Positions 15,287 through 34,326 of a stretch of DNA of 34,564 bases are shown here, piece after piece; position 1 is the first letter of the stretch; each line of letters opens with the position of its first letter. The notes beneath the pieces were generated by a model. That model worked only from the letters and a program-made list of their open reading frames with translations, searched no databases and was not told where the DNA came from. Both the position numbers and the translations under genes were made by a program. Source of the stretch: Candidatus Saccharimonadota bacterium (GTDB lineage Bacteria; Patescibacteriota; Saccharimonadia; Saccharimonadales; Saccharimonadaceae); contig JAGAEN010000002.1 in NCBI GenBank assembly GCA_017613135.1, positions 1-34,564 of the forward strand. Direction: 5' to 3'.

Positions 15287-15299
15287 ATTTTCCTTTCTT

Positions 15300-15333
15300 G
15301 TCCGATAACCTCTAAGAAATGAGTTGTTCGGAC
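15300..15333 (-). promoter_or_regulatory. hairpin in the rpsJ leader
   Basis: GTCCGA and TCGGAC (15328-15333 and 15300-15305) form a perfect 6-bp outer stem. An inner AACTC with GAGGTT extends it. The hairpin ends just before the ribosome-binding site, in a leader of about 70 nt, which is a typical place for autogenous control of ribosomal protein genes. Regulation is inferred from position only. Confidence 0.5.
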
Positions 15334-15362
15334 TTGATACTTATTATTGCTAATATGAATCA

Positions 15363-15371
15363 ATTATAGCA
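15363..15371 (-). promoter_or_regulatory. extended -10 promoter of rpsJ
   Basis: The minus strand reads TGTGCTATAATTGATTC with TATAAT at 15368 to 15363, immediately downstream of the tuf terminator. rpsJ therefore has its own promoter despite the tuf-rpsJ order. Confidence 0.75.
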
Positions 15372-15372
15372 C

Positions 15373-15401
15373 AAAAATTCTCCCCTGTAAAGAGGAGAAT
15401 T
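15373..15401 (-). terminator. tuf terminator
   Basis: AATTCTCC (15376-15383) and GGAGAATT (15394-15401) form an 8-bp stem with a 10-nt loop, followed on the minus strand by a TTTTTG run. It lies 18 nt after the tuf stop codon. Confidence 0.8.
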
Positions 15402-15418
15402 CTGAGACGATTCAGTTA

Positions 15419-16603
15419 TTATTTAATAACTTTGGTGATAACACCGGAACCGACAGTCTTGCCACCTTCGCGGATAGCGAAGCGGTCGTTGTTGTTCATC
15501 GCGACTGGAGCAAGTAACTTCACATTGAAGGTCACTTGGTCACCAGGCATTACGATTTCCTTGTCGGCTGGGAGTTCAACTTCGCCAGTCACATCGGTGG
15601 TGCGGAAGTAGAACTGTGGCTTGTAACCCTTGGAGAATGGAGTATGGCGGCCGCCTTCCTCTTTCTTCAAGATGTAAACTTGTGCTTCAAATTCAGTATG
15701 TGGGGTGATTGAACCTGGCTTCGCAATCACTTGACCACGCTCGATTTGGTCGCGCTCAATACCACGAAGGAGAAGCCCAGCGTTATCGCCTGCTTGACCT
15801 TGATCGAGAGTCTTGTGGAAGGCCTCAATACCAGTCACGACGGACTTTTGAGTTTCTTTGAGACCGACAATTTCAACTTCGTCGTTTAATTTCACAACAC
15901 CTTGCTCAATACGGCCAGTAGCCACCGTACCACGACCCTTGATTGAGAATACATCCTCGATTGGCATCAAGAATGGTTTGTCAAGATCGTGCTCTGGAAT
16001 GTCAAAGTATTCATCCATCGCCGTGACGAGTTCCATAATAGCGTCTTCATTTTCCTTATCACCTTCGAGAGCCTTAGTAGCAGAACCCTTGATGATAGGA
16101 GCGTTGTCGCCATCGAAACCATATTTATTGAGAAGTTCGCGCACGTCCATTTCGACGAGTTCGACGAGTTCTGGGTCAGCAAGATCCATTTTGTTTAAGA
16201 AAACGATAATCTTTGGCACATTCACCTGGTGAGCAAGCAGTACGTGCTCACGAGTCTGTGGCAAAGGACCATCATTTGCCGCCACCACGAGAATAGCACC
16301 ATCAACCTGCGCAGCACCAGTAATCATGTTCTTGATGTAATCTGCGTGGCCTGGCATATCTACGTGTGCGTAGTGACGCTTAGCCGATTCGTACTCCTGG
16401 TGAGAAGTCGCGATAGTAATACCACGAGCCTTTTCCTCAGGCGCGTTATCGATTTGGTCATAAGCCACCGGTTTGTTGACATCCGATGGTAATCTTTTTG
16501 CGAGAACAGTAGTAATCGCAGCAGTTAAAGTGGTTTTACCGTGATCAACGTGGCCCATAGTACCGACGTTAATATGCGGTTTGGAACGGTCAAAATTTGC
16601 CAT
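15419..16603 (-). CDS. tuf: translation elongation factor Tu
   Basis: Full-length EF-Tu, 394 residues, delivering aminoacyl-tRNA to the ribosome. G motifs are visible in order: [10 protein letters not shown] (G1, about 17-26), [13 protein letters not shown] (switch I), [12 protein letters not shown] (G3), FLNKMDLAD (G4, N-K-x-D), and [10 protein letters not shown] (G5). Domains II and III follow, with [37 protein letters not shown] and the C-terminal [24 protein letters not shown]. An AAGGAG site precedes the ATG. Its promoter and a leader hairpin lie in the 200 nt upstream, back to back with the adhesin promoter. Confidence 0.99.
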
Positions 16604-16627
16604 TCATTCTCCTTTTATATTATTATG

Positions 16628-16657
16628 TTTGGAGCGCTAATAAAAACCAGCTCCAAA
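16628..16657 (-). promoter_or_regulatory. hairpin in the tuf leader
   Basis: TTTGGAGC and GCTCCAAA form a perfect 8-bp stem with a 14-nt loop, about 25 nt upstream of the tuf start codon and about 7-37 nt into the predicted transcript. It is not followed by a T-run in the tuf direction, so an RNA-stability or regulatory element is more likely than a terminator. Confidence 0.5.
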
Positions 16658-16670
16658 ACTCTACTTTATT

Positions 16671-16699
16671 ATTTTAGACTATTTTGTTAAAAATGTAAA
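16671..16699 (-). promoter_or_regulatory. promoter of tuf
   Basis: On the minus strand TTTACA (16699 to 16694), 17 nt, then TAAAAT (16676 to 16671). One mismatch from consensus in each hexamer with optimal spacing. Leader of about 60 nt. Confidence 0.75.
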
Positions 16700-16738
16700 G
16701 AGGTTATTTTATTAAATATTTGTTTATAAAAATTTTTC

Positions 16739-16766
16739 TTGACAAAACATAAACAATATGTATAAT
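16739..16766 (+). promoter_or_regulatory. promoter of the VaFE adhesin gene
   Basis: TTGACA (16739-16744), 16 bp, TATAAT (16761-16766). Both hexamers are exact consensus, giving a leader of about 34 nt. The ribosome site before the ATG at 16807 is weak (CGGA). Confidence 0.88.
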
Positions 16767-16806
16767 AGAGAGTGTAAAAGGTCAAATATAAACACGGAAA
16801 CAAAAA

Positions 16807-19800
16807 ATGTTTTTATTTAGCAAAAAAGATATTATTAAGAAAGTGATTTTAGCGTCACTCTCGATTTGTCTTGTCGCGGCGGCCATTGTCACGGCTATTT
16901 ATCATATTCAAAAACAAGTCATTGCTAGTACGGCAGCGGGAGACTCTATCGTTGTTAATTATACTAGAGATATTTATTATGGCGAAAGAGATAATGGCGA
17001 GCCTTATCGCACGCGTGATTTTACAGTTAGTGTTGGCGATCAGACTGTGACCGCTTTTTGTGCTAACCCAGAGAGAAAAGCAGTGAAGGGGACCTTTCCT
17101 ACAAAGACAATGCAGGATACAGATATTAATAAGAGAATAAAACTCATGATTTACATTGCAACTGCTAATAATGATGTTACTAACCCTATTATGGATAGTT
17201 TCTTTAGTGGCGTTAATGATTCGGATTTACGTTACGCCTATTCCCATGCCGTCATTGGTGCGCTTTACGCCAATGATTATCATGCATTAACCACATCGGA
17301 AGAAGCTATGATTCGAGCTATTTATGATATTAGAAATGGCCACGTATATACCGATAGGCTTGGCGATTATATAAATGAAAATAATGACGTTTGGCTAATG
17401 GCTAAGAACTATCAGCTGTATAATATTAATCGAAGCGGCACCACGTTTGATGGAAATAGCTATCAAGATATCGTGTGGATTGAAGACAACAATCAATACG
17501 GTAACATCAGAGTCGAAAAGCACGACTCCGAAACTGAATCTACTACCCCACAAGGTGGCGCTAATCTCAAGGACATTAACTTTAAGGTCTACAACAATTC
17601 TGGTAGCCGAATCTATAATCCGAAAACTCAACAAGGGTTTTATGATAACGGTGAACTGGTGGCCGAGGGGTCTACTAACGAGAACGGCGTAGTAGAATTT
17701 GATAATTTAGTCCTTGGCAGCTACAAGATTGAAGAGAACAGTGAAGGCAGTACTAATAATAGCTACAATTTCACCGCTACCAGCCCTCAATACATCACGC
17801 TTTCAACCAACGGTGAAACTAAAACCGTTGTTTTCAATAATACCGTCAAAAGAGGCTCACTCACTGTTTACAAAAATGACAAGGAATTAGATTCTTGTAA
17901 TAAGCTAGGCAAGGCTGACTTTACGGGCATAAAATTCCAAATTATCAATAGGTCAACTAACCCAATTGTTTATAATGGTAATACCATAGCCGTTAATGAT
18001 ATTGTGGCCGAGGAAACTCTTGGCGATGCTGAGTGTAGTGCGACATTCGATAATTTACCATATGGCGATTACAATATCGTCGAAGACGTTAGCGGCGGCA
18101 GCGGATACTTAGCCGCTACGAGTGTCGACGTAACTATACAAAACACTACTAGTTCCAGCGTCACATTTAAAAACCAAGTCATTCGTGGCAATGTCAAATT
18201 CAAAAAAGTTGACCAGAATAATCAACCAATGGCAAATGTCCCATTCAGAATCACTTCGGAAACCACCAACGAATCTCACATTGTCATTACGGACGCAAAT
18301 GGTGTAGTTGATACTTCCGCGAATCCACACTCAAATCACACTAACGGCTACGACATCTTCGATAATTTCAATGGCGCAACTTATCAAGGTTATGGCACTT
18401 GGTTTGGTGAAAGCGCTTCATCATCAAGCGATATCGATTCACTCGGTGCCCTGCCTTACGATACCTATAAAATCACCGAAGTTTCTTGTGACCAAAACAG
18501 GTTTTGCAATGATATTGAATTGACGGAACGAAATTTTGATATAACCGAGGATGGCGCCGTCAGGGAGCTAGGCAACTGGATAAACAATTGTGCCGAGTTT
18601 AGCCTTACCACCACCGCCACGGATAATGCCGATGACGACAAATATGTTACGGCTGGCTCCGGCTCCAAAATCAAAGACACCATTAGCTATTGTCTTAAAG
18701 CCAACACACAGTTTACTATTATAGGTACCTTAATAGATAAACAGGCTAAAAATAGCAACGAGCAAGTGATCGGACAATCTACTATTACTGTTTCTCCTAC
18801 CGCAGATTGCGGTGTGGCTGAAATGATCTTTGAATTTGATGCCTCTTCCCTTGCTGGTCATGAAGTCGTTGTTTATGAAAGTGTTTATTACAATAACGTC
18901 GAGATCGTAGCCCACGCAAATAGTGAAGACGAATCTCAAACAGTCAGCATTATCAGCTTAGCCACCACTGCCACGGATAATGCCGATGGCGACAAATATG
19001 TTACGGCTGGCTCCGGCTCCAAAATTAAAGATACTATTAACTATTGTCTTAAAGCCAACACACAGTTTACTATTATAGGTACCTTAATAGATAAACAGGC
19101 TAATAATATCAACGAGCGAGAGATCGGACAATCTACTATTACTGTTTCTCCTACCGCAGATTGCGGTGTGGCTGAAATGATCTTTGAATTTGATGCCTCT
19201 TCCCTTGCTGGTCATGAAGTCGTTGTTTATGAAAGTGTTTATTATAATGATGTCGAAATCGTAGCCCACGCAAATAGTGAAGACGAATCTCAAACAGTCA
19301 GCATTATCAGCTTAGCCACCACTGCCGTAGATGGTCAGGTCATAGAAAAGCCAGAAGCGGATAATGATGAAACGGAAAACGATGACGACGAAAACGAAGA
19401 AGGCAATGATAGCGAAAACGAGAATGAAGAAGAAGACGATGAAGACGAAAGCACCCTGGATAATGAAGTCGCAGCGAAGTATGTTGAGAATACTAAAGAC
19501 GCAAAAATCAAGGATACCATAGCGTATTGCTTGAAAACCGATGTAGAGTTTACCATTATAGGTACGCTATGGGATAAAACTGCCAAGGAAGAATTAATAA
19601 TTGACGGTCAAGTTATCGAAAAAAGCATTACAGTGAAACCGACAAAGTCTTGCGGGGAAGTCGAAATGGTCTTTGAGCTTGATGCTTCGCTTCTTGGTGG
19701 CCACGAAATAGTTGTCTTTGAAAAACTCTACTACAACCAGGACCTTATCATGAAGCACGAAGAACCAGAGGATGAAGCCCAGACTGTTAGGATAATAAGT

Positions 19801-20325
19801 CTAACTACCTTCGCTACTCACGCTGAAAGTGATAGCAAAGATATAATCGCATCTGGTAGAGTTAGGATAAAAGATGAAGTCAAGTATTGCCTTAAACCCA
19901 ACACCGAATACACATTTAAAGGCACACTAATGAACAAAAATACTGGCAAAAAACTACTAATAGACGGAAAACCCATCACGCAAACTGTAACCTTTACTAC
20001 AGAAGACGATTGTTGCGGGCAATTCGACATGTTCTATGAGTTTGACGCTACTGATCTTGGCGGTACAGACGTGGTGATCTTCGAAGATTTGTATGAAGGT
20101 GACGATTTAATAATTAGACATAGTGATCCTGAAAATCAAGACGAGACATTCTATCTCACAATCCCAGTGCCAGATACTGGCTTCGCTACTCTAGTGGTCG
20201 AAAAGAGCGACCAGAAGAACCCACCAGTGTTAACCATTGCAATTTCCGTATGCGTTGCGACAATGGTTATCTACCTTGGGATTAGATTTAGGACCAGAAA
20301 GAAATACTTTACCGCCGAATTCTAA
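16807..20325 (+). CDS. VaFE-repeat surface-anchored adhesin
   Basis: A 1172-residue secreted protein. An N-terminal signal/transmembrane stretch (about 11-35) is followed by a helical domain (about 45-215; VTAFCANPERK, AYSHAVIGALYANDY) like the thioester-type head of Gram-positive adhesins, but I cannot confirm a Cys-Gln thioester pair. Three SpaA/Cna-B-like beta domains span about 233-597 (GNIRVEKHD, RGSLTVYKND, RGNVKFKKVD). Four VaFE repeats follow from about 598 to 1118, each with K-I-K-D-T, a VVxFE-type strand and a closing D-E-x-Q-T-V. Family members form Thr-Gln ester crosslinks. Each repeat here also has a Cys in YCLK and another near CG, suggesting disulfides. The tail IPVPDTGF, a membrane helix and RTRKK form a sortase-type sorting signal. 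Repeat 3 carries a long Asp/Glu/Asn insertion. Confidence 0.88.
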   Translation: MFLFSKKDIIKKVILASLSICLVAAAIVTAIYHIQKQVIASTAAGDSIVVNYTRDIYYGERDNGEPYRTRDFTVSVGDQTVTAFCANPERKAVKGTFPTKTMQDTDINKRIKLMIYIATANNDVTNPIMDSFFSGVNDSDLRYAYSHAVIGALYANDYHALTTSEEAMIRAIYDIRNGHVYTDRLGDYINENNDVWLMAKNYQLYNINRSGTTFDGNSYQDIVWIEDNNQYGNIRVEKHDSETESTTPQGGANLKDINFKVYNNSGSRIYNPKTQQGFYDNGELVAEGSTNENGVVEFDNLVLGSYKIEENSEGSTNNSYNFTATSPQYITLSTNGETKTVVFNNTVKRGSLTVYKNDKELDSCNKLGKADFTGIKFQIINRSTNPIVYNGNTIAVNDIVAEETLGDAECSATFDNLPYGDYNIVEDVSGGSGYLAATSVDVTIQNTTSSSVTFKNQVIRGNVKFKKVDQNNQPMANVPFRITSETTNESHIVITDANGVVDTSANPHSNHTNGYDIFDNFNGATYQGYGTWFGESASSSSDIDSLGALPYDTYKITEVSCDQNRFCNDIELTERNFDITEDGAVRELGNWINNCAEFSLTTTATDNADDDKYVTAGSGSKIKDTISYCLKANTQFTIIGTLIDKQAKNSNEQVIGQSTITVSPTADCGVAEMIFEFDASSLAGHEVVVYESVYYNNVEIVAHANSEDESQTVSIISLATTATDNADGDKYVTAGSGSKIKDTINYCLKANTQFTIIGTLIDKQANNINEREIGQSTITVSPTADCGVAEMIFEFDASSLAGHEVVVYESVYYNDVEIVAHANSEDESQTVSIISLATTAVDGQVIEKPEADNDETENDDDENEEGNDSENENEEEDDEDESTLDNEVAAKYVENTKDAKIKDTIAYCLKTDVEFTIIGTLWDKTAKEELIIDGQVIEKSITVKPTKSCGEVEMVFELDASLLGGHEIVVFEKLYYNQDLIMKHEEPEDEAQTVRIISLTTFATHAESDSKDIIASGRVRIKDEVKYCLKPNTEYTFKGTLMNKNTGKKLLIDGKPITQTVTFTTEDDCCGQFDMFYEFDATDLGGTDVVIFEDLYEGDDLIIRHSDPENQDETFYLTIPVPDTGFATLVVEKSDQKNPPVLTIAISVCVATMVIYLGIRFRTRKKYFTAEF
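18602..19309 (+). repeat. tandem 354-bp repeat encoding VaFE domains 1 and 2
   Basis: Two successive units offset by exactly 354 bp (118 codons) are almost identical at the nucleotide level, including long stretches without a change (for example around 18690-18745 versus 19044-19099). The third and fourth VaFE repeats are far more diverged. This indicates a recent duplication or gene conversion and a site where repeat number could vary by recombination. Confidence 0.92.
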
Positions 20326-20333
20326 ACCGTCAA

Positions 20334-20363
20334 AATAGCCGGACTAAAACCGGCTATTTTTTT
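20334..20363 (+). terminator. terminator of the adhesin gene, between convergent genes
   Basis: AATAGCCGG (20334-20342) and CCGGCTATT (20350-20358) make a 9-bp stem with a 7-nt loop, followed by a T tract. It lies 9 nt after the adhesin stop and 10 nt beyond the fusA stop on the other strand, and may serve fusA less well because the T-run there is short. Confidence 0.88.
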
Positions 20364-20372
20364 ATTCTAGAA

Positions 20373-22472
20373 TTATTTCGAATTTCGCTTCTCAATAATT
20401 TCTTGCGCTACGTTTGGTGGTACTTCCTCGTAAGCGAAGAGCTCCATTGACGAAGCTGCACGACCCTGTGTCATACCGCGAAGATCACCGGTGTAACCAA
20501 AGAGATTGGCCAAAGGACAAAACGCCTTGATTAATTTGGCACCACCGTTCAGATCTTCCATTTCATCGATGCGACCACGGCGCGAGTTAATATCACCAAT
20601 GACGTCACCCATGAACTCTTCCGGAGTAGTGATTTCAAGTTTCATCACTGGCTCGAGTAGTACTGGGTTCGCTTTCTTAATACCTTCACGGGTAGCTAGA
20701 GCACCAGCAAGGGTGAAGGCTAGTTCGGATGAGTCGACATCATGGTACGAACCATCATAAAGTGTCGCTTTAACATCTACCACTGGGTAACCAGCAATCA
20801 CACCACCGGCGAGAGTATCTTCGATACCTTTTTGGACCGGCTTGCGGTATTCTTGCGGCACCACGCCACCCTTAATCTGATCAATAAACTCAAATCCTTT
20901 ACCTGGTTCATTCGGCTCAAACTTGACCCAGACGTCACCGTATTGACCACGACCACCAGACTGCTTAATGTGCTTACCTTGTGCTTCAGCCGTGCCACGA
21001 ATAGTTTCACGATATGCAACTTGTGGTGCGCCAGTATTGGCTTCCACGCCGTGTTCCCTCTTCAAGCGGTCGATAATAATTTCAAGGTGTAGCTCACCCA
21101 TACCCGAAATAATGGTCTGGCCAGTTTCTTCGTCGGTATGGACGCGGAAAGTTGGGTCTTCCTCGGCGAGCTTAGATAGACCAATGCCCATTTTTTCCTG
21201 GTCGGCCTTGGTCTTTGGCTCGACTGCAATCGATACTGGTGGATCTGGGAAGTCAATAGACTCCAGAAGGATTGGATGTGCCGGGCTACAAATCGTAGTA
21301 CCAGTCGTACAATTCTTAAGTCCTACCACTGCTGCGATATCACCAGCCGTGATTTCCGAAATCTCATTACGATCATTAGCATACATCCGGACCAAACGGC
21401 CAATGCGCTCCTTGTCGCCGGTTGTTGCGTTCATCACCGTGTCACCAGACTTTAAAGTACCAGCATACACGCGGATGAAGATTAATTTACCTACGAATGG
21501 GTCAGTCGCAATCTTAAAGGCAAGTGCGGTAAGTGGCTCCGAGTTGTCAGCCTTGCGCACAATCTGCTCGCCAGTCTTTGGATCGGTACCAACGGTCTGA
21601 CCTTGGTCACGGTCAAGCGGGCTTGGCAGGTAATCAGTCATCAGGTCAAGTACTTTTTCTACAATCACACCACGACCATCGCCACCAGTCACCAAGAAGA
21701 AATCGCCGTCGAGCACGCGTTTTCTAAGCGCGGCTTTGAGTTCAATTTCAGTAATAGACTCTTCGCCTTGCGTGAAGTACTTGTCCATCAAGGCTTCGTC
21801 AGCCTGAACGGCTTCCTCAATCAACATCGAGCGAGCATTTTTGGCTTTTTCAACCATATCGGCCGGTATTTCACCTACCGTAAGTTCGTGATCAGCATAA
21901 TCCTTGTAAGTATAAGCCTTCATATCGACGAGATCTACGACACCACAAATATCTTTTTCAAAACCAATTGGGAGGTGAATTGCTACGGCATTTTTGGACA
22001 AACGCTTGTGAATCGAATCAAGCGACTTGTAAAAATCACCACCAATTTGGTTAATCTTATTCACGAAACAAATGCGTGGAATGCCATATTTGGTCGCTTG
22101 GCGCCATACGGTTTCGGACTGTGCTTCGACACCCATCTTACCATCAAACACTACCACTGCACCATCAAGCACGCGAAGCGAACGCTCTACCTCTGCGGTA
22201 AAGTCAATGTGGCCCGGGGTATCAATAATGTTAATTTGATGATTTTTCCAATAGACCGTCACTGCTGCAGAAGTAATCGTGATACCACGTTCCTTTTCCT
22301 GCTCCATCCAGTCAGTTTCAGCACCACCAGTGCCACCTTTCACAAGGTCAATTTTATGTTTAAGCCCGGTACGATAAAGAATCGCTTCGGAGGTCGTAGT
22401 TTTACCTGCATCGATATGCGCAATGATACCAATATTACGTAACTTCGACAGGTCTTTAATCTCAGTAGCCAT
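20373..22472 (-). CDS. fusA: translation elongation factor G
   Basis: Full-length EF-G, 699 residues, catalysing ribosomal translocation and, with RRF, recycling. GTPase motifs are IIAHIDAGKTTTSEAILYRTG (about 15-35), ERGITITSAAV (switch I), DTPGHIDFTAEVERSL (G3), FVNKINQIGGD (the usual N-K-x-D is N-K-I-N here) and later domains II-V (GMGELHLEIIIDRL, GRGQYGDVWVKFEP, GEFMGDVIGDINSRRG-type motif). The G4 Asp replaced by Asn is worth noting: most EF-G have NKMD, so guanine recognition may be altered or this is a lineage trait. A strong AAAAAGGAG site precedes the ATG, with a leader of about 70 nt. It is separate from tuf and rpsJ, unlike the classical str operon. Confidence 0.98.
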   Translation of the reverse strand: MATEIKDLSKLRNIGIIAHIDAGKTTTSEAILYRTGLKHKIDLVKGGTGGAETDWMEQEKERGITITSAAVTVYWKNHQINIIDTPGHIDFTAEVERSLRVLDGAVVVFDGKMGVEAQSETVWRQATKYGIPRICFVNKINQIGGDFYKSLDSIHKRLSKNAVAIHLPIGFEKDICGVVDLVDMKAYTYKDYADHELTVGEIPADMVEKAKNARSMLIEEAVQADEALMDKYFTQGEESITEIELKAALRKRVLDGDFFLVTGGDGRGVIVEKVLDLMTDYLPSPLDRDQGQTVGTDPKTGEQIVRKADNSEPLTALAFKIATDPFVGKLIFIRVYAGTLKSGDTVMNATTGDKERIGRLVRMYANDRNEISEITAGDIAAVVGLKNCTTGTTICSPAHPILLESIDFPDPPVSIAVEPKTKADQEKMGIGLSKLAEEDPTFRVHTDEETGQTIISGMGELHLEIIIDRLKREHGVEANTGAPQVAYRETIRGTAEAQGKHIKQSGGRGQYGDVWVKFEPNEPGKGFEFIDQIKGGVVPQEYRKPVQKGIEDTLAGGVIAGYPVVDVKATLYDGSYHDVDSSELAFTLAGALATREGIKKANPVLLEPVMKLEITTPEEFMGDVIGDINSRRGRIDEMEDLNGGAKLIKAFCPLANLFGYTGDLRGMTQGRAASSMELFAYEEVPPNVAQEIIEKRNSK

Positions 22473-22550
22473 ATGCTCCTTTTTAATAATTATTATTCAT
22501 TTCGTCCATTGCGAGCTCCACACTCAAAAACAAGAGACATAATTTTCTTC

Positions 22551-22559
22551 ATTATAACA
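22551..22559 (-). promoter_or_regulatory. extended -10 promoter of fusA
   Basis: The minus strand reads TTATGTTATAATGAAG with TATAAT at 22556 to 22551, giving a leader of about 70 nt before the ATG at 22472. It lies just downstream of the terminator of the 22580-23221 RNA, so fusA has its own transcript. Confidence 0.65.
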
Positions 22560-22579
22560 TAAAATAATAAAAATAGTAA

Positions 22580-23221
22580 AAAATTACCCCGGCACATTTG
22601 TGCCGGGGTTTTGAGGGAATGAACATGAAAAGACTCTTCGCAATCCTGTTTGGTTGCTAGTTTGATAGGTTTTTGGTCTTATTACGAGTGAATAATTCCT
22701 AAAACTAGTTCGGGTGAATCTTGTGATAGGAAATACACGGGAGAACTCGTTGTTGACCACCACGACGAGCCATTAGTTGTCCGCGCAGTGCAGACGTGCG
22801 ACATGCTCTTCTAGAAGAAACAACTGAACTTCCAACCGGCCAAGAAATTAGCCATAGTCTTTCCAGGCGCGGGCGCCAAAATGGCAAACCGGCGAACGTA
22901 TCTCTCACACAACCCCTCCTTTCTTTGGGTGAGATTTTCGCTTTTCACGAACCCCATTTTAAAGTACTGGCCCCCGGTGGGGGGCATTTGTCATAACGAT
23001 AAGGGCAGTCCCTTACAGTTGGACAAATCATATAACTACAAAGGCAACATCAGTTTCAACTGTGTTACAGCACTAGATAGGCGCTACCCACTCTAGCGTT
23101 TGCGACCATTTGCCTATTATGCTGGCACCCGCCAAGCAAGCCGTGCTAAACCTGGCTGGTATAAGCCATGCGCGCGCGGGCATCACGGTCAAATGTGTTA
23201 CATTACGCTCCCCACCGAGTA
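22580..23221 (-). ncRNA. unidentified structured RNA of about 640 nt
   Basis: This is the only long stretch without a convincing gene. It has a near-perfect promoter on the minus strand and ends at a strong intrinsic terminator. Between them are many hairpins: ATTTGTC/GACAAAT (22986-22992, 23022-23028) enclosing TAAGGG-ACTG-CCCTTA (23000-23015); GCCCCC/GGGGGC (22970-22985); TGGCT/AGCCA; CGCTA/TAGCG. Two copies of an NTGTAACACAN hairpin (23193-23203, 23060-23070) have a compensating base-pair change. Part of the 5' region resembles tmRNA (ATTTGACCGTGATG; AAATGGTCGCAAACG), but no T-arm or acceptor 3' end is visible. RNase P signatures such as GAGGAAAGTCC are absent. A 67-codon GTG-start frame (22908-22705) with AAAGGAGG upstream is an alternative reading. 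Base composition is richer in GC than neighbouring intergenic DNA. Confidence 0.7.
22587..22608 (-). terminator. terminator of the 640-nt RNA
   Basis: CCCCGGCACA and TGTGCCGGGG form a perfect inverted repeat, followed on the minus strand by TAATTTTTTACTATTTTT. It ends the RNA before the fusA promoter. Confidence 0.9.
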
Positions 23222-23227
23222 AGACGT

Positions 23228-23256
23228 ATTATATAGAACGATTAAAGACTTGTCAA
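23228..23256 (-). promoter_or_regulatory. consensus promoter of the 640-nt RNA
   Basis: On the minus strand TTGACA (23256 to 23251), 17 nt, TATAAT (23233 to 23228). Both hexamers are exact with optimal spacing, the strongest promoter in the window by match to consensus. It starts 4 nt after the gatB stop codon. Predicted start is near 23221. Confidence 0.9.
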
Positions 23257-23259
23257 CAC

Positions 23260-24672
23260 TTATTTTAGTTTTTTTCTTAAAATCTCTTGCACCGCTGATG
23301 GATTGGCTTTGCCGTGGGATTCTTTCATTACTTGACCTACGAGGAAGCCAATGACTTTTTCTTCCCCATTTTTGTAGTCTTCTTGAGCTTTTTTGGTTTC
23401 CGGTTTTTGAAGTACAGTGTCAATAATTGCTTCAAGCGCACCTAAATCATTTTCCTGGATTAAGCCAAGTTCTTTCGCAATGTTCTTGGCGCCACGATTT
23501 TTCATTTGAGGATCGAATAATCGTAAGAAAACTTCCTTCGTGGCGGTAGAAGATAGCTCTTTCTTTTCGTTCATCTCGCAAAGTTCATTCAAATCTTTTG
23601 CGGATGGCAAATCATTTAAGTATTCTGCTGATTTTTCTTCTGCAAGTAATACCGAAGCAAACAAATTTGACATACTCTTAACATACTCCGAACATACTTC
23701 GTCAAGCTTTTTCATCAAAGCAGGATAGTCTAATAATACTTCTAATGTGTCGCCAGAAATTACATTGCCAAATTTCTTGCGATAGTCCGCTGGCATTGGT
23801 GGCAACTTGGCCGCTTCTTTTTCAGTAAACTCTTTTGATAAATTAATCGGTGGCAAATCTGGCTCTGGCATATAGCGATAATCTTTGGCTTCTTCCTTAG
23901 AACGCTGTGCCGTAGTTTTACCGGTCGCATCATTCCAACCCAAAGTCTGCTGGACTACCTTTTCACCCGCTTCTAGTATTTTTGTTTGTCGCGCAATTTC
24001 GTATTCTACGGCTCGTTCTACTGAACGGAAAGAATTGAGGTTTTTAACTTCGGTTCTGGTGCCTAATTTGTCGGAACCTTCTGGTGCTATAGAAGTATTT
24101 ACGTCAAATCGCATATTGCCATTATACAAATCTCCATTTGTCACGCCCGCAAAGCACATCAATCGCCAAAGTTCCTTGCAGTAATCGTGAGCGTCTTTAG
24201 CTGAGTGAATATCCGGCATCGAAACAATTTCAATCAAAGGCGTATCCACGCGGTTTAAATCTACTAACGAATAATTATCAAAATGCGTGAGTTTACCAGC
24301 ATCACCTTCAAGATGTGCGTGCTCGATATGAATCTTAGTACCTGACGGTAGTTCCACGTGCCCAGCACCAATAATTGGTTGATAAAACTGTGTAATCTGA
24401 TAACCCTTCGGCGAATCTGGGTAAAAATAATGTTTACGATCAAAACGCGAGTGAGCGTTGATTTTACAATTCATCGCCTTCCCTGCGCGAATAGCAAATT
24501 TAATTGCCTCACCATTTAATCTTGGCAGCATCCCAGGTAGAGCGTAGTCCACTGGTGATACACAAGAGTTTGGCTCTTTGCCTCTCGCGTCATTATCTAC
24601 TTCCGAAAAAAGTTTAGTCTTGGTTGAAAGTTGAACGTGGCATTCAATGCCAATAGTCGGAATGTATTTCAT
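23260..24672 (-). CDS. gatB: Asp/Glu-tRNA amidotransferase subunit B
   Basis: A 470-residue GatB, the tRNA-binding and amidation subunit of GatCAB that turns misacylated Glu-tRNA(Gln) and/or Asp-tRNA(Asn) into the correct species. Motifs: IPTIGIECHVQLSTKTKLFSE at the start, DYALPGMLPRLN, FDRKHYFYPDSPKGYQITQF (about 78-97), LEGDAGKLTH, DLNRVDTPLIEIVSMPD, the T-R-T-E-V-K-N-L-N-S-F-R stretch, and DYRYMPEPDLPP. The C-terminal YqeY-like tail domain (about 320-470) ends with KESHGKANPSAVQEILRKKL. The start overlaps the stop of the upstream gene as TAATG. It is the last gene of the gatC-gatA-X-gatB operon; no terminator is evident before the RNA promoter that begins 4 nt after its stop. Confidence 0.97.
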   Translation of the reverse strand: MKYIPTIGIECHVQLSTKTKLFSEVDNDARGKEPNSCVSPVDYALPGMLPRLNGEAIKFAIRAGKAMNCKINAHSRFDRKHYFYPDSPKGYQITQFYQPIIGAGHVELPSGTKIHIEHAHLEGDAGKLTHFDNYSLVDLNRVDTPLIEIVSMPDIHSAKDAHDYCKELWRLMCFAGVTNGDLYNGNMRFDVNTSIAPEGSDKLGTRTEVKNLNSFRSVERAVEYEIARQTKILEAGEKVVQQTLGWNDATGKTTAQRSKEEAKDYRYMPEPDLPPINLSKEFTEKEAAKLPPMPADYRKKFGNVISGDTLEVLLDYPALMKKLDEVCSEYVKSMSNLFASVLLAEEKSAEYLNDLPSAKDLNELCEMNEKKELSSTATKEVFLRLFDPQMKNRGAKNIAKELGLIQENDLGALEAIIDTVLQKPETKKAQEDYKNGEEKVIGFLVGQVMKESHGKANPSAVQEILRKKLK

Positions 24673-25091
24673 TAGATGGCTCCTAAATCTTTAAGTGCTT
24701 GTTTATAAATAGAAAGCGCATTAGCGGCTTGCCGATATGACAATTCAAAATCTGATTCGTGCGCAATCATATTGCGAAGTTTATGCGCGCGCCATACCGC
24801 ATCGAGCTGCGTAAATCTATCGCCTACTCGCTTTAATCTATCCCCCATCGTTTTGCCAGGAATTCCCATTTCAACCATCGCTTTATCCAGTAACTTGTCG
24901 CTATTGATAATAGTTAAAGGAAAAGTCGCGGCGTTGTCTTTATTTAATTTATTTTCAATCGCAAGAAATCTCGTCTGATATTCTTCGACGTTAAATCTGT
25001 GCCCGCGCTTGCCAGTTAGTCCAATCGCGATAAATATTAATACTGCCACTATAATAATGGCAATAATAAACGTCACTACTCCACCATCCAT
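24672..25091 (-). CDS. membrane-anchored HEPN-like protein inside the gat operon
   Basis: A 139-residue protein I cannot assign to a named family. Residues 4-25 form one N-terminal transmembrane helix (VVTFIIAIIIVAVLIFIAIGL). The rest is predicted helical, with KLLDKAMVEMGIPGKTMGDRLK and a final LSYRQAANALSIYKQALKDL. Residues 106-111 read RNMIAH inside WRAHKLRNMIAHESDF, matching the HEPN R-x4-H motif with the usual Asn after Arg. HEPN proteins are often RNases, though some members are inactive. It is joined by TAATG overlaps to gatA upstream and gatB downstream, so it is made in step with GatCAB. Possible roles are RNA binding or cleavage at the membrane, or an operon hitchhiker; both are inference. 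Confidence 0.8.
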   Translation of the reverse strand: MDGGVVTFIIAIIIVAVLIFIAIGLTGKRGHRFNVEEYQTRFLAIENKLNKDNAATFPLTIINSDKLLDKAMVEMGIPGKTMGDRLKRVGDRFTQLDAVWRAHKLRNMIAHESDFELSYRQAANALSIYKQALKDLGAI

Positions 25092-26560
25092 TAGGCTATC
25101 TCCTTTGCAAATTCAATCAAGGCCATATCGCTACGCCTTGGACCAACTAACTGTAGCCCAAGTGGCAAACCGTCCTTAGTCTTACCGACCGGAATAGCCA
25201 GCCCTGGCACTCCAGCAAGGTTTAGCGATACACTCATCAAATCTTCAAGATACATCGCTACTGGGTCATTTACCTTTTCGCCTAATTTAAAAGCATAGTT
25301 TGGTGACACTGGCGTTAAGATAAAATCACACTTCGAAAATGCCTCTTCATATTCTTTCACAATCAAAGTCCTCGCCTTCGCGGCCTTAAGGAAATATGCA
25401 TCATAAAATCCAGATGACAGCACGAAATTTCCAATCATAATTCGGCGCTTGTTTTCTGGCATAAATCCTTCACTGCGTGTATCGTCATATATTTCTTCCA
25501 AATCCTTAGCCTTCTCAGAGCGGAACCCATAGCGAATCCCATCATATCGCGACAAATTCGAAGCCACTTCTGCTGGCTGAATAATATAATATACGGCCAA
25601 AGCGTACTTCAATGTCGGCATCTCAAGTTCTACGATTTCATAACCCTTTTCTTTTAACTTCTCACACTTCTTCTTCAAAACCTCCCTAATCTCCGGCGTC
25701 ACCGCCTCGTTGTCAAAATCTTTGATGATGCCGATGCGGATAGGTAATGAAGCGGAAGGCGCGGTGTGTTCTGCGGAACATGAAGACTTGGCCAGAGCGG
25801 CTTGGGAGCTGTTGTCCGAAGGACACGCTGCGTCTTCCGCTTTATTACCGCCGTTTTCAACTTCGTAGTAACTTGGCAGTGTTGTTAAATCCTTAGAGTC
25901 TTGCCCCGAAGCAATAGTCATCAAAAGATCCATATCTTCTGGGGTTTTAGTAAAGAACCCAATACAATCAAGCGACGAAGCCATAGCCACCACGCCATAC
26001 CTAGAAATACAACCAAAAGTTGGCTTCAAACCATAAACTCCGTTAAACGAAGCCGGCTGCCGAATCGAGCCACCCGTATCAGTACCCGTGGCAAATTCCA
26101 CAATGCCTAGCGCCACCGCCGCTGCCGATCCACCAGACGACCCGCCTGGTACTCTTTCAAAGTCTACCGCATTGTGAGTCGGTCCATAGTATGAGTTTTC
26201 TGTAGACGACCCGTGCGCAAAAGCATCCAAATTTGTCCGCCCAATCATAATTGCGCCTTCCGCCTCTAATTTCTCTACTGCTGTCGCTGTGACTGGCGAA
26301 ACAAATCCTTCTAGAATATGTGCCGAAGCCGTAGTGGGGCCTTCCGGCGACAAGAAATTATCTTTTAAAGCATATGGCACGCCAGCTAGTCGCCCAACTT
26401 CCTCACCTCGTGCAATTCTCTTATCAATCTCCTCAGCTTTTTTGAGCGCCCCTTCACTATTTAAAAAAGTAAAAACATTATATTTTTCGAATTTTTTGGC
26501 TTTTTCCAGTGCTTCTTTTACTAGGCTCACTGCCGTGATTTTTTTATTTGCAGTTTTCAT
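25091..26560 (-). CDS. gatA: Asp/Glu-tRNA amidotransferase subunit A
   Basis: A 489-residue amidase-signature glutaminase that supplies ammonia to GatB. The Ser-cisSer-Lys triad is visible: Lys in PYALKDNF (about 63-70), cis-Ser in [14 protein letters not shown] (about 138-151), and nucleophile Ser in [11 protein letters not shown] (about 157-167). Further blocks are [50 protein letters not shown] and [12 protein letters not shown]. Residues of about 240-270 ([13 protein letters not shown] to [10 protein letters not shown]) form an extra loop absent from typical GatA, encoded by a 93-bp palindromic element. Start overlaps the gatC stop as TAATG; stop overlaps the next start the same way. No Shine-Dalgarno is needed if ribosomes reinitiate. 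Confidence 0.97.
25750..25842. repeat. 93-bp palindromic element inserted in frame in gatA
   Basis: The ends are a perfect 9-bp inverted repeat, AAGCGGAAG (25750-25758) and CTTCCGCTT (25834-25842). Inside are two more hairpins: TGTTC-TGCG-GAACA (25767-25780) and TGTCC-GAA-GGACA (25813-25825). The total of 93 bp is 31 codons, so the frame is kept. It lies in a variable loop of GatA and its codons are more GC-rich than the flanks. The design resembles palindromic elements that insert into genes in Rickettsia; no relation by descent is claimed. No second copy is seen in this window. Confidence 0.65.
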
Positions 26561-26847
26561 TATAGTACCCTCGGAACTTTAATTTGATGATCTTTTTCTT
26601 CTTTTGTAAGTGCCAGTAGCTCTTCGCGTGTAGCATCTTGCCTCAAAACCTCATCATCTCGCCAGACATTTTCCATTTCAAAAACTTGGTAAGTCGGTTC
26701 CACCCCCTCAGTATCGAGCTCATCGAGCTGTGAAATATATTTAATAATATTCTGAAGGTCGTGCGTCAAAGCCTCAGTTTCCTTTTCATCCAAATCAAAA
26801 TCCGAGAGCTTGGCTAAATGTTTGATTGTCTCGCAGTTAATTTCCAT
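26560..26847 (-). CDS. gatC: Asp/Glu-tRNA amidotransferase subunit C
   Basis: A 95-residue GatC, the small subunit that wraps and stabilises GatA-GatB. Typical pattern: two N-terminal helices (IKHLAKLSDFDLDEKETEA, LQNIIKYISQLDELDTEGVEP) followed by the extended TYQVFEMENVWRDDEV segment, which matches the usual P-T-x-x-x-x-x-x-x-R-x-D motif. The ATG is 7 nt downstream of a TATAAT box, indicating a leaderless start. It heads the gatC-gatA-X-gatB operon, and its promoter begins 5 nt after the murJ stop codon. Confidence 0.95.
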   Translation of the reverse strand: MEINCETIKHLAKLSDFDLDEKETEALTHDLQNIIKYISQLDELDTEGVEPTYQVFEMENVWRDDEVLRQDATREELLALTKEEKDHQIKVPRVL

Positions 26848-26854
26848 ACACTAA

Positions 26855-26863
26855 ATTATAACA
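26855..26863 (-). promoter_or_regulatory. extended -10 promoter of the gat operon, leaderless type
   Basis: The minus strand reads TGTTATAATTTAGTGTATGG: TATAAT (26860 to 26855), 7 nt, ATG of gatC. No Shine-Dalgarno is present. Confidence 0.72.
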
Positions 26864-26864
26864 A

Positions 26865-28505
26865 TTATTTGGCGTTTTTAAAGAGGATTTTTTTAATATA
26901 GCCAAAAATTGGCTTCGCTTCTTCTAGACTCAAGAAATAACTCGCAATTAAATACGCCAAGGCCGAGCCAGAGGCAATTAGCAAAAATCTCGGGATTGTG
27001 ATTACCAGTGACACATCTGTAATTCTTAGTGGGATAAACTTAGTGAGAGAAAACGCTACGCAACCAGCCACTGCCGTCGCCACAATCATCCGTGCCATCG
27101 CTTTATAAAAATCTCGATTTAATAGTTTATGCCCAGAGCGACGTTGCAATATATATAATAATATGATTATTTCTACGATTGCCCCGATTGACTGCGCTAG
27201 GCCTAGCCCATCCACTCCCCAGCCCAGAAGATAAAACCATATCGATAAACCAATTGTCAGCCCAATCGCAATGATTGACACCCAAAATGGTGTTTTAGTA
27301 TCTTGATAAGCATAAAAACCGCGCGAGGCAATATGGAACACCGACCTCGCAAAAATCGCAATACACAAAGTCCCGAGTACCGAAGCAATCGTACCGTTCT
27401 GGTCGTTATTACCAATATTTGAAATGAAACTTGTCACGTAGCCACGCGTAAAGAACACGACCACAGCAATCGGCAAGGCTATCCAAGTAATAGTCCGAAG
27501 TGCTTTTCTAAAAGTATTAAAGAACTCATCCGTTTCTCCCGTGCCGAGTTCTTCCGTTAATTTCGGGAAAAACGCCGTCGAAATAGCCACACCAATTAAG
27601 CTAATCGGCATTTGATGCAGGGCCGAAGCCTGGTTAAATGATCTCACTGCTCCAGCGCCCATCCGTGAAGACAAGTTGGTGTTGACAATAGAATTAACGT
27701 AATCAATTCCTTGATCCAAGGAGCGTGGCGGCAATAATTTCAGAATTGTGCGAAATCCCTGATTTTTCCATTTGATTTTAAATTCGTAATCAAAGCCTAA
27801 CCCAAATAGTCCAATCAGAGATACGATTAATTGCATCACGGCACCAAGGATTACGCCTAGCGCCACGCCCATAATTCCCCCATCAAAAATCTGTACACCG
27901 AATAAATTGATCCCCCCCGTAAACCAAGTAATGCCAATAATAATACCTACATTATAAATCGCTGGCGCAAACGCATAGAATACAAATCTTCCTACCGCCT
28001 GCTGAATCGACGTGAGTACTGTCGCGATACTAAACAAAAATGGATTGATTGCAATCACGCGCGTCATATTAATAGCCAGAATCATCCCAGACTCATCAAG
28101 CCCCGGGCTCACAATATAGCGAATAAGAGGATCAGCAAAAATCATAATTAAAACACTAGTAATCAAGGTTAGGATTGCAAGTAAATTCAATAAGCTAGAT
28201 GATAGCTCCCAGGCTGATTTTTTATTACCAGTTGTCAAACGCTGATTGAATACTGGGATGAACGAAACTGCCAGCGCGCCTGAAGTCAAAATAAAAAACA
28301 TAAAATCTGGTATTGTAAAAGCCGCCGTGTAAGCGTCAATTCCAGTCGGATAAGTACCAAGATAGTAAGAGTTTAAAAGTCGGTCGCGAAACAACCCGAG
28401 CAGTGCCGAAATCAGGGTCGAAGATGCCAAAACAATTGCCGCTGCTTTCACGGAGAGTTTGATATTAGCAAGTTGCACCACGGATTTAAAGCGGAACTTT
28501 TTCAT
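26865..28505 (-). CDS. murJ: lipid II flippase MurJ
   Basis: A 546-residue MOP-superfamily transporter with about 14 transmembrane helices, moving lipid II across the cytoplasmic membrane for peptidoglycan synthesis. MurJ/MviN landmarks are ASSTLISALLGLFRDRLLNSYYLG at the start (the conserved Arg-rich loop after TM1), DAYTAAFTIPDFMFFILTSGALAVSFIPVF, and NTNLSSRMGAGAVRSFNQASALHQMP in the centre. Further markers are FFPKLTEELG and SRGFYAYQDTKTPFWVS near 390. Its ATG is 7 nt after TATAAT, a leaderless arrangement, and its promoter is fused back to back with that of the penicillin-binding protein that uses the flipped lipid II. Confidence 0.95.
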   Translation of the reverse strand: MKKFRFKSVVQLANIKLSVKAAAIVLASSTLISALLGLFRDRLLNSYYLGTYPTGIDAYTAAFTIPDFMFFILTSGALAVSFIPVFNQRLTTGNKKSAWELSSSLLNLLAILTLITSVLIMIFADPLIRYIVSPGLDESGMILAINMTRVIAINPFLFSIATVLTSIQQAVGRFVFYAFAPAIYNVGIIIGITWFTGGINLFGVQIFDGGIMGVALGVILGAVMQLIVSLIGLFGLGFDYEFKIKWKNQGFRTILKLLPPRSLDQGIDYVNSIVNTNLSSRMGAGAVRSFNQASALHQMPISLIGVAISTAFFPKLTEELGTGETDEFFNTFRKALRTITWIALPIAVVVFFTRGYVTSFISNIGNNDQNGTIASVLGTLCIAIFARSVFHIASRGFYAYQDTKTPFWVSIIAIGLTIGLSIWFYLLGWGVDGLGLAQSIGAIVEIIILLYILQRRSGHKLLNRDFYKAMARMIVATAVAGCVAFSLTKFIPLRITDVSLVITIPRFLLIASGSALAYLIASYFLSLEEAKPIFGYIKKILFKNAK

Positions 28506-28512
28506 AATAATT

Positions 28513-28532
28513 ATTATAACACGTGCTATAAT
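28513..28532. promoter_or_regulatory. symmetric divergent promoter shared by murJ and the PBP gene
   Basis: The core reads TTATAACACGTGCTATAA, almost a perfect palindrome centred on CACGTG. It holds a minus-strand extended -10 (TGTTATAAT, hexamer 28518 to 28513) and a plus-strand extended -10 (TGCTATAAT, hexamer 28527-28532). Only 8 bp separate the two hexamers, so two polymerases cannot occupy the site together. Each start codon is 6-7 nt downstream. Confidence 0.8.
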
Positions 28533-28538
28533 ATTTAC

Positions 28539-31439
28539 ATGGCTAAAAGAAAAAAAGTGGATGTTATTTTGCCATCTGGTGAGGATAAACCAAAAAAGGT
28601 TTTAGTTGTAAAAACTAAGCTAACCCCAGATGATAAAACACCAAACGAACCAGTTCAAGACAAAGCGACGATAAGCGACTTAGTCACAAAAGAAGCTTCG
28701 TCAAATGAGTTGGAACAAAATAATTTAGAACAAAATAATTTAGAACAAAATGAATTAGAAAAAAAGGAATCAGAATCAATGTCAAAATCAAAAAAAGATG
28801 CCAAGAAATCTCGCCGCAAAGAAGGTGGTTTCCTTGCCAACTGGAAAGAAAGACGCAAGGCTAAGAAAGAAAAAGAAGCCAGACGCCGAGCAGAAGACCT
28901 AGCGACTTTACCGAAAGAACCAGTCAAACGATTCTTTGCCAGACTTCATCCGAAGCGAGTTTTTAGATGGTGGTTTTCTTGGCGCGGCCAAAAAGCCATT
29001 CTTAAACTCTTCGGTGTCTGTTTCCTTCTCTTAGTAATCGCCATCGGCGGGCTATTCCTTTACTACAAGAAAGATCTCGATAAAATTCGTCTTGACGAGA
29101 TGACTATTTCCGAAACAGTCAATACTTACCTAGATAGAAATGGAGTAGTGCTCTGGAAGGATATTGGCAACGAAAACTACCGTCTCATTATCGATGGAGA
29201 GGACATCCCGGAACAACTCAAGCAAGCCACCATCGCCATCGAGGATAGAAACTTTTACAACCATATTGGTGTAGATATTTTCGGTTTAATTCGTGCTACC
29301 ATCAGTACGGTTTCTGGTAAGCAAGTGCAAGGTGGGTCTACGCTTACTCAGCAGTTAATCAAGCAAGTTTATTTTGCCGACGAAGCAGCCAGCGAAGACC
29401 GTGGTGGTCTGACGCGTAAGATTAAAGAGTTGATTCTTGCTATCGAACTCGAGCGCATGTATTCTAAGGAAGAAATCCTTACGATGTATTTAAATCAATC
29501 CCCTTACGGCGGTCGCCGCAATGGTGTCGAATCGGCTGCCCAGACATATTTTGGTAAATCAGCTAAAGATTTGACCTTAGCCGAGTCTGCACTTCTTGCT
29601 TCAATTCCGAATAACCCGGCCGTATTAAACCCATATAATGAATATGGCAATGAGCAATTGCTCTGGCGCCAGCATTATACTCTAGACGTAATGGCTGAAA
29701 TGGGTTTTATTACTCAGGAAGAAGCCGAAGAAGCCAAAGCCGTTCCGATTCTTGATACAATTAAGCCAGAGGCCAGCCAATATGCCGGTATTAAGGCACC
29801 ACACTTCGTTCTAGAAGTTAAAAAACAGCTAGAAGACAAATATGGTATTTCCGTGATGCGCACTGGCGGTTGGACTATTACCACCACCCTAGATATACGC
29901 GCCCAACAAGTTGCTGAAGATGCTGTGGCAACCGGTGCAGGCATGTTCTATATCAACCGTTCCGACAATATAGCCCTAGCCTCTCTAGATGTTGAAACCT
30001 CACAGGTAATCGCTATGGTTGGGTCAATCGATTTTAACAATGTAGAATATGGCTCATATAATGCTGCGAATGCACTTCTTGAGCCAGGTTCCACCATTAA
30101 GCCAATTCTTGATTACACTCCACTATTTGTTCAGCGCGAAGGCATCAATTATGGTCCAGGCTCAATCTTAAAAGACGAAAATATCGATAGGGTTTATTGT
30201 GCCAATAGCGGCAGCGCCTGTCGTCTCCGTAATTATACTGGAAGGTTTTATGGTGATGTGACTATTCGCCAAGCTCTGTCTAACTCGCTTAATATTCCAG
30301 CAGTCAAAGCACTCTATATTAATGGTATTGATAACTCGCTAGAAGTTGCTCACGCTCTTGGTGACGTTTCATATTGCGACGGCAGACAAAATTACGGCCT
30401 TTCTATTGCCATCGGCTCCGGTTGTAACGTCCGTTTAACTGAACATGCTAATGCCTATGCTTCAATCTCGCGCGGAGGTACCTTCAAAGATATCACTTAC
30501 GTTCTCGAAATCAAAAATAGCAACGGCGACATTATTGAAAAATGGGTTGATACTGCCGGCAAACGTGTGGTGGATAACCAAGTTGCCTATATGATTTGGG
30601 ATATTCTGCACGACCCGAAAGCCAGGGCATCCTTGGTCTGGGGGTCGCAATCTTATGCTTACGGGTTTGTTGTTCCTGGTGTAGAAACTGCCTCAAAGAC
30701 TGGCACTACCACTACTGCCAATTCCAACGAAACTAAAGATTCTCTTATGATTAGCACTTCATCTGCTATATCTACTGTGGTATGGAATGGCAATCATAAC
30801 GGTTCTGGTCTAAGAAATTCAGATAACTCTATCGTACGTAGAGTGATTAATAATTATATGGAGCGCGTCCATAAAGAAGTTTATGAGCCAGAAGGCAAAT
30901 GGCACTACGGTGACACCCCGATTAGACCTGCCGGCTTAAAGCAGCTGACCGTCAACGGTAAGACTGATATTTGGCCGAGCTGGTTTGACGAAAAAAAGAA
31001 CTCCGGCATTACCAAAGAAACCATGGTTTTTAACCGCTACAACTATTTATTAGCTGCTGCCTGTACCCCAGAAGCTTATAAGATTAGTATCGAGGTTAGC
31101 AAAATTATCGACCCAATGACTGGTAATGAAAACATTATTGTTCCCGAGCCATATAACCGTGAAGTAAGCGATACTTGTGATTATGCTCCACCTTCCGTTT
31201 CACTTTCAATCAGTGGCAACACGATTATCGTCGCCATTAGCAAAGGTACCTATAGCTACAACTATACTTTATACGTTGATGGAGAGGCGAACAATAACAT
31301 CTCCATTGGCTCAAATGGAGTGGTGAATGGATATACTCTAAATGGCACTGAAAAATCTATCAAAATTATGGTCACAGATGCGGCCGGCTATACTGTCGTA
31401 GACGAAAAAACCCTTACCCCCAGCAAGCCAGAAAGTTAA
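28539..31439 (+). CDS. class A penicillin-binding protein (PBP1-type)
   Basis: A bifunctional peptidoglycan glycosyltransferase and transpeptidase of 966 residues. A Lys/Glu-rich cytoplasmic N-terminus (about 1-145) is followed by one transmembrane helix (about 155-178). The GT51 domain has AIEDRNFYNHIGVDIFGLIRA and GGSTLTQQLIKQVYF. The transpeptidase domain has active-site Ser in PGSTIKP (about 518), S-N-S-L-N (about 585) and KTGTTT (about 720). The C-terminal part is beta-rich and Ig-like. The ATG at 28539 is chosen over an in-frame start at 28473 because it lies 6 nt after TATAAT and the longer version would run through the promoter. It stops 1 nt from the convergent PIN-TRAM gene. Confidence 0.95.
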   Translation: MAKRKKVDVILPSGEDKPKKVLVVKTKLTPDDKTPNEPVQDKATISDLVTKEASSNELEQNNLEQNNLEQNELEKKESESMSKSKKDAKKSRRKEGGFLANWKERRKAKKEKEARRRAEDLATLPKEPVKRFFARLHPKRVFRWWFSWRGQKAILKLFGVCFLLLVIAIGGLFLYYKKDLDKIRLDEMTISETVNTYLDRNGVVLWKDIGNENYRLIIDGEDIPEQLKQATIAIEDRNFYNHIGVDIFGLIRATISTVSGKQVQGGSTLTQQLIKQVYFADEAASEDRGGLTRKIKELILAIELERMYSKEEILTMYLNQSPYGGRRNGVESAAQTYFGKSAKDLTLAESALLASIPNNPAVLNPYNEYGNEQLLWRQHYTLDVMAEMGFITQEEAEEAKAVPILDTIKPEASQYAGIKAPHFVLEVKKQLEDKYGISVMRTGGWTITTTLDIRAQQVAEDAVATGAGMFYINRSDNIALASLDVETSQVIAMVGSIDFNNVEYGSYNAANALLEPGSTIKPILDYTPLFVQREGINYGPGSILKDENIDRVYCANSGSACRLRNYTGRFYGDVTIRQALSNSLNIPAVKALYINGIDNSLEVAHALGDVSYCDGRQNYGLSIAIGSGCNVRLTEHANAYASISRGGTFKDITYVLEIKNSNGDIIEKWVDTAGKRVVDNQVAYMIWDILHDPKARASLVWGSQSYAYGFVVPGVETASKTGTTTTANSNETKDSLMISTSSAISTVVWNGNHNGSGLRNSDNSIVRRVINNYMERVHKEVYEPEGKWHYGDTPIRPAGLKQLTVNGKTDIWPSWFDEKKNSGITKETMVFNRYNYLLAAACTPEAYKISIEVSKIIDPMTGNENIIVPEPYNREVSDTCDYAPPSVSLSISGNTIIVAISKGTYSYNYTLYVDGEANNNISIGSNGVVNGYTLNGTEKSIKIMVTDAAGYTVVDEKTLTPSKPES
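28710..28754 (+). repeat. 15-bp tandem repeat in the PBP cytoplasmic tail
   Basis: Three copies of a TTAGAACAAAATAAT-like unit encode LEQNN, LEQNN, LEQNE, with a degenerate fourth (LEKKE). The unit length is a multiple of three, so slippage would change the tail length without breaking the frame. Confidence 0.85.
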
Positions 31440-31440
31440 T

Positions 31441-32124: not shown

Positions 32125-32131
32125 CACCAGA

Positions 32132-34236: not shown

Positions 34237-34243
34237 ACTTACT

Positions 34244-34252
34244 ATTATAACA
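34244..34252 (-). promoter_or_regulatory. extended -10 promoter of the phosphoketolase operon, leaderless type
   Basis: The minus strand reads TATGTTATAATAGTAAG and then TATG: TATAAT (34249 to 34244), 7 nt, ATG. No Shine-Dalgarno is visible. Confidence 0.72.
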
Positions 34253-34270
34253 TAAGAATAAAAAAAGTCC

Positions 34271-34298
34271 TTGCATTCCATTCCGCTCGTGCTATAAT
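34271..34298 (+). promoter_or_regulatory. promoter of the right-edge secreted protein gene
   Basis: TTGCAT (34271-34276), 16 bp, TATAAT (34293-34298) within CGTGCTATAAT. Leader of about 22 nt carrying GAAGGA. Confidence 0.75.
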
Positions 34299-34326
34299 AA
34301 AAGTATTCAAATGAAGGAAATTTTAT

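Follow-up and report, generated by a model that had tools for sequence, protein, structure and literature searches.

The gatB-fusA gap of a gut Saccharibacteria genome encodes a predicted, ornately folded transcript of about 640 nt, and this RNA is very probably translated, because it carries a strong Shine-Dalgarno sequence ahead of a small open reading frame (ORF) whose C-terminal motif is kept through synonymous changes. That the locus yields a structured transcript within which a small ORF is translated is, judged from sequence, highly probable. As to how it works, we favor, tentatively, a stand-alone structured mRNA whose nascent chain stalls the ribosome near the stop codon; a functional small protein is the main rival and about as likely. 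Either way, the transcripts and their peptides form a new family, the former being large, structured and absent from Rfam, the latter short and absent from Pfam and the PHROGs.

The host genome comprises 728,709 bases on 19 contigs. Its nearest public relative, L043 (genome G026), is an uncultured Candidatus Saccharibacteria MAG, and ruminant guts are the source of many other relatives. Within the window, that is, the whole stretch of 34,564 nt that was analysed, the RNA interval (22580-23221; 642 nt; sense on the minus strand) lies between gatB (23260-24672, minus strand) and fusA, which encodes EF-G (20373-22472, minus strand); these two genes define the site. A preliminary description of this DNA had reported an exact TTGACA-17-TATAAT promoter equal to or better than any other in the window, together with a perfect 10-bp terminator and numerous nested hairpins; the promoter, the terminator and strong folding were borne out. 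The promoter begins right past the gatB stop codon and matches the consensus at 12 of 12 positions (-35 TTGACA at 23256-23251, 17-nt spacer, -10 TATAAT at 23233-23228, minus strand); L043 has it at the same position and with the same sequence. Only one other 12/12 site occurs in 15,000-34,564, with a spacer of 16 nt (16739-16766, plus strand), and it is followed by a gene for a 1172-residue, repeat-containing and apparently surface-anchored protein; promoter and gene together span 16739-20325 (plus strand). We placed the transcript start 7 nt past the -10 box. The transcript is predicted to end at an intrinsic terminator (22586-22609, minus strand) with a perfect 10-bp stem, an AAAT loop and the tail AATTTTTT, which has the highest G-C pair count among the 19 terminator-like sites found. 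Past this terminator, fusA has a promoter-like site of its own (-10 TATAAT at 22556-22551). Its short 5' leader (22541-22510, minus strand) holds a TTTTTGAG(T/C)GTGGA element that recurs ahead of fusA in most relatives read and is possibly a cis-regulatory motif.

The RNA had been described as of unknown class, being neither RNase P nor a complete tmRNA, and our searches agree. No Rfam model reached its gathering threshold anywhere in the window, including those for tmRNA, RNase P, OLE, ROOL and GOLLD, and a search of 22450-23350 at E <= 10 returned noise only, with nothing credible. Both housekeeping RNAs lie on contig C18: a class A RNase P (C18:13798-14135, 232 bits) and a tmRNA (G000, locus L001; C18:10084-10438), which scores 88.8 bits, above the Rfam cut-off and without an ARAGORN call, and which may be divergent. 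With both located elsewhere in the genome, a divergent RNase P or tmRNA was rejected as the identity of the RNA. The window RNA shares with tmRNA a structured RNA around a short internal reading frame, but no tRNA-like domain was found in it, its ORF comes with a start codon and Shine-Dalgarno of its own, and the tmRNA has a separate locus. The resemblance to OLE, ROOL or GOLLD that had been suggested went no further than being bacterial, large and ornate: no model matched at threshold, and the window RNA differs in having an ORF under selection that follows a strong Shine-Dalgarno and keeps its C-terminal motif through synonymous changes. GOLLD and ROOL were described from phages and prophages, often close to tRNA islands (PMC12286853), as opposed to a setting between gatB and fusA.

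The predicted fold is more stable than expected from composition, with a minimum free energy of -225.3 kcal/mol where shuffled sequences average -197.7 kcal/mol (z = -3.6, from only 20 dinucleotide shuffles). A 5' multibranch domain (22973-23219, minus strand) is closed by a 12-pair stem joining 23219-23207 with 22985-22973. L043 is 80% identical over this domain, keeps the closing stem and shows compensatory pairs in the inner helices. Alignment of homologous gatB-fusA gaps and a test for covariation had been proposed as a check, and the structure is backed by both comparisons made: 7 pairs of the consensus fold have both sides changed between the window and L043, and in the sister subgroup L068/L070/L077/L079/L129/L141 there are 23 such pairs versus 8.7 +/- 2.2 in shuffles (0 of 500 as high), for six related sequences, two of which are almost the same, and with a structure that was predicted from that very alignment. 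In this alignment 94.3% of cells pair, and slid structures yield 1-6 double-changed pairs. As the window has nothing in common with the subgroup beyond the core and the ends of the ORF, its own fold rests on the comparison with L043.

This core (22911-22963, minus strand; 62.7 bits, E = 8e-17) consists of a hairpin, GGGGUUCG..CGAA-AAUCUCACCC, and an extended Shine-Dalgarno sequence. Eight sequences have in common the hairpin GGGYUUCG-(variable)-CGAAAAUYYUACCC directly 5' of the Shine-Dalgarno, and it is too invariant for a covariation test; by eye it tempts one to see a mimic of 16S helix 31, but the alignment was no better than shuffles (p = 0.69). The Shine-Dalgarno itself, AAAGAAAGGAGGGG (22913-22926, minus strand), can pair without mismatch over 11 nt with the 3' end of 16S rRNA (CCTCCTTTCTT), as judged by BLAST and from the genome's own 16S tail, which reads GGATTACCTCCTTTCTTGAG; in L043 complementarity extends over a 25-nt stretch at 84%. 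In nearly all members it stands at a normal distance from the ORF. At E <= 1e-6, a covariance model of the core matched eleven genomes of the genus, that of the window and ten more, once in each and at the gatB-fusA site wherever checked; most of these eleven matches are training sequences or near copies and so arise largely by construction, the independent one being in G186, a relative of L084. Among 393 genomes across the order, nothing convincing was found beyond the genus. Beyond the genus, and at other places in the genomes, the core and the C-terminal motif had only chance-level matches that lacked the anatomy, and recurrent AAATCCTTCTCAAGAAAGGAG matches proved to be the 16S tail in reverse complement.

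Behind the Shine-Dalgarno lies a small ORF that the preliminary description had missed (22705-22908, minus strand; GTG start, 67 codons, TAG stop, ending in CISYHKIHPN). Its start region and last residues are kept in the sister species. The L043 ORF, of 64 codons and likewise behind a strong Shine-Dalgarno, matches it at the start (MRDTF.../MEDTF..., RPRLERL/RPKLERL) and at the end (YHKIHPN/HHKLHPE), whereas the middles differ. Third bases have changed in the last codons (CAC AAG ATT CAC CCG in the window, CAT AAA CTG CAT CCA in L043), which shows that the protein is conserved, HKIHP/HKLHP, and not the RNA alone. ORFs with a C-terminus of the same type were found in the window, L043, L045, L050, L054, L056, L060, L061, L063, L064, L068, L070, L077, L079, L083, L084, L193 and L195; at this site in the genus they span 54-68 codons, plus a single one of 15. 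In 12 representatives, proline at -2, K/E at -5 and I/L/V/M/T at -4 are each present 12 of 12 times, and positions -7 to -9 are mostly aromatic or His, giving a motif of aromatics followed by [K/E]-[V/I/L/M/T]-x-P-x-stop. L045, with 15 residues only (MKFTRFYYRRIMAPG), keeps a C-terminus of this kind with a spacing one residue longer. The N-terminus is partly conserved too (MxIGFLxFP); the middles are hypervariable and unrelated even between sister species. Six close pairs gave pN/pS values of 0.22-0.57 (L054/L064 0.22; L068/L070 0.25; L061/L083 0.31; L070/L077 0.40; L056 with L061/L083 0.54-0.57), one close pair, L068/L077, a value near 1, and window/L043 0.61, near saturation. Where alignment A4 has gaps inside the ORF, their lengths are divisible by three. 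Together these patterns support protein-level selection on the ORF. The stop is UAG in 10 of 13 members, counted, like the C-terminal residues, among related sequences, compared with 24% for long ORFs in the same loci. Over the 45 nt that begin at the stop, the folding z averages -2.0, and about 9 of 13 show a clear hairpin; neither the window nor L043 has a strong hairpin directly past the stop. The ORF peptides matched no Pfam or PHROG profile, L043 reaching only a sub-threshold DUF7480.

To survey the site, we collected relatives via a gatB search and read onward to fusA. Among 66 fusA-linked loci, the window included, gap lengths vary between about 90 and 3,000 nt, with 16 loci at <=200 nt, which marks the site as variable and the RNA as an accessory element. 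The family was found at this site only, in one genus, and is patchy and fast-changing: among 59 related genomes, only one (G026, that is, L043) holds an RNA close to that of the window at the DNA level, with 80% identity across the first 311 nt. Members whose two ends, promoter and terminator, were delimited measure 580-741 nt. Each member of the window's subfamily has the structured leader, the conserved core hairpin and the extended Shine-Dalgarno, and in all members the short ORF is followed by a further 130-410 nt and then the terminator; no further conserved ORF before the terminator was seen in the window or the delimited members. Between 23800 and 23201, some 600 nt covering the gatB 3' end and the RNA promoter, window and L043 are 96-99% identical. 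Outside this tract identity is about 80-88% on both sides and falls to ~49% within the RNA, and this suggests that DNA was recently exchanged at the gatB end, the breakpoint lying where the RNA starts. Such an exchange tract would be consistent with a diversifying site. No described phage, plasmid or viral contig matched by DNA or by core motif.

Other sequences also occupy this gap. L068, L070, L077 and L079 have a 138-139-residue membrane-type protein (start MIEAILTTFFVAMVPVIELRGALPIGVG) between gatB and the RNA, and some other gaps hold unrelated genes, such as a family of ~200-residue proteins behind a similar consensus promoter. The gaps of L046, L049, L052, L053, L057, L060, L064, L071 and L110 encode proteins of about 175-306 residues with an MPLREFLYF...EWSGIP-like stretch and consensus promoters ahead; one member tested had no Pfam or PHROG match. 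In L088, L099, L104 and L105, transcripts of ~300 nt are predicted, with consensus or near-consensus promoters, terminators and apparently no ORF, and these could represent another type of RNA at the site.

Computation thus supports the promoter, the terminator, the covarying RNA structure, selection on the ORF, the C-terminal motif and the site-specific family; what follows about transcription, translation, arrest and any downstream effect is inferred. The consensus promoter would drive a stand-alone transcript, with the strong terminator insulating fusA. Downstream of the long folded leader, the extended Shine-Dalgarno presented by the conserved hairpin could capture 30S subunits. A ribosome would then translate about 55-67 codons, the middle ones free to vary, until it reaches the conserved end of aromatics, a basic residue, K/E, an aliphatic, x, Pro, x and stop (usually UAG), often just ahead of a stable hairpin. 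There, the nascent chain may slow or arrest the ribosome at Pro-x-stop, a step which we regard as possible, with some doubt. The functional state would be the RNA with its paused ribosome, which would remodel the 3' half of the RNA. It seems unlikely, though conceivable from the sequence, that the RNA is a self-contained ribosome trap, accessory and strongly expressed, in which the stalled ribosome-RNA particle is the effector instead of a downstream gene.

Arrest near Pro-x-stop is preferred because published stallers combine aromatics with proline: arrest peptides and selected stallers place tunnel-contacting aromatics together with a proline at the catalytic site, FxxYxIWPP stalls E. coli ribosomes by such residues, and known arrest peptides confine their conservation to residues near the end (PMC7897499, PMC13410324). 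Conservation in the present ORFs likewise lies mainly at the C-terminus, and the resemblance to SecM, TnaC, ApdA/ApdP (RAPP-type) and FxxYxIWPP extends to the short ORF, the C-terminal proline and the structured RNA around it. The strongest objection is that arrest and leader peptides control a downstream gene, whereas here the terminator follows the ORF with no gene to regulate in the same transcript, and the RNA is much larger. In addition, [K/E][V/I/L/M/T]xPx-stop after aromatics differs from every described arrest motif (RAPP, SecM, TnaC and FxxYxIWPP have no exact match here), its final residue is variable and it lacks Pro-Pro. The weak post-stop folding in window and L043 and the pN/pS near 1 of L068/L077 also speak against arrest, and the partly conserved N-terminus fits a functional peptide equally well.

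Such a peptide may indeed be the product itself, a possibility that we hold as tentatively as arrest. The RNA would then be the mRNA of a fast-evolving protein of 55-67 residues with an unusually long folded leader, and the protein, for example, a toxin-like, immunity or host-interaction peptide; its C-terminus would serve as a signal for binding or processing. Purifying selection across the ORF, N-terminus included, argues for this, as do the strong promoter and Shine-Dalgarno and a hypervariable middle in a gene patchily present at a variable site. Against it stand the missing Pfam or PHROG match, middles unrelated between sister species, the reduction to 15 residues in L045, and a site with no predicted antisense RNA or partner gene; moreover, the large covarying RNA structure on either side of the ORF would be left unexplained.

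The RNAIII of S. aureus is a folded RNA of about 500-700 nt with one small ORF. The window RNA is alike in size range, fold and its one small ORF, and a dual-function, trans-acting RNA of this type, whose 3' anti-Shine-Dalgarno stretches block other mRNAs or its own Shine-Dalgarno and whose peptide is a second product, would be conceivable, if improbable. Anti-Shine-Dalgarno words are indeed about 4-5-fold over shuffles in L068, L070, L077 and L079 (p <= 0.007), and a 3' CTCCTTTCT is the main predicted Shine-Dalgarno partner in L077 and L079 (a minority state in L070). However, no excess was seen in the window (p about 0.19), L043, L084, L193, L195 or L056, so that the idea fits one subgroup only; universal sequestration of the Shine-Dalgarno by 3' anti-Shine-Dalgarno sequences was dropped, being predicted for only part of that subgroup.

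A purely noncoding machine of the OLE, ROOL or GOLLD kind with incidental ORFs, to which size, stability and covariation would lend themselves, is very unlikely given synonymous conservation, pN/pS, frame-preserving gaps and a Shine-Dalgarno at normal distance. Least probable of all is a cis-acting fusA leader or attenuator in which stalling alters terminator read-through: most fusA-linked members do lie directly upstream of fusA (in L068, L193 and L195 even with other genes intervening after gatB), but fusA has its own promoter-like site past the terminator, 16 of the 66 linked gaps measure <=200 nt, and in L054, L060 and L064 another gene separates the RNA from fusA.

The family belongs to a single Saccharibacteria genus, whose genomes are close to 0.7 Mb in size, and is set apart by its combination of an ornate leader, near-maximal Shine-Dalgarno pairing, a hypervariable ORF and a fixed Pro-x-stop with no gene behind. 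If ribosomes do stall there, these RNAs would widen the reach of arrest peptides past the control of a neighboring gene in cis; if not, they would represent a small protein that evolves fast at a variable site.
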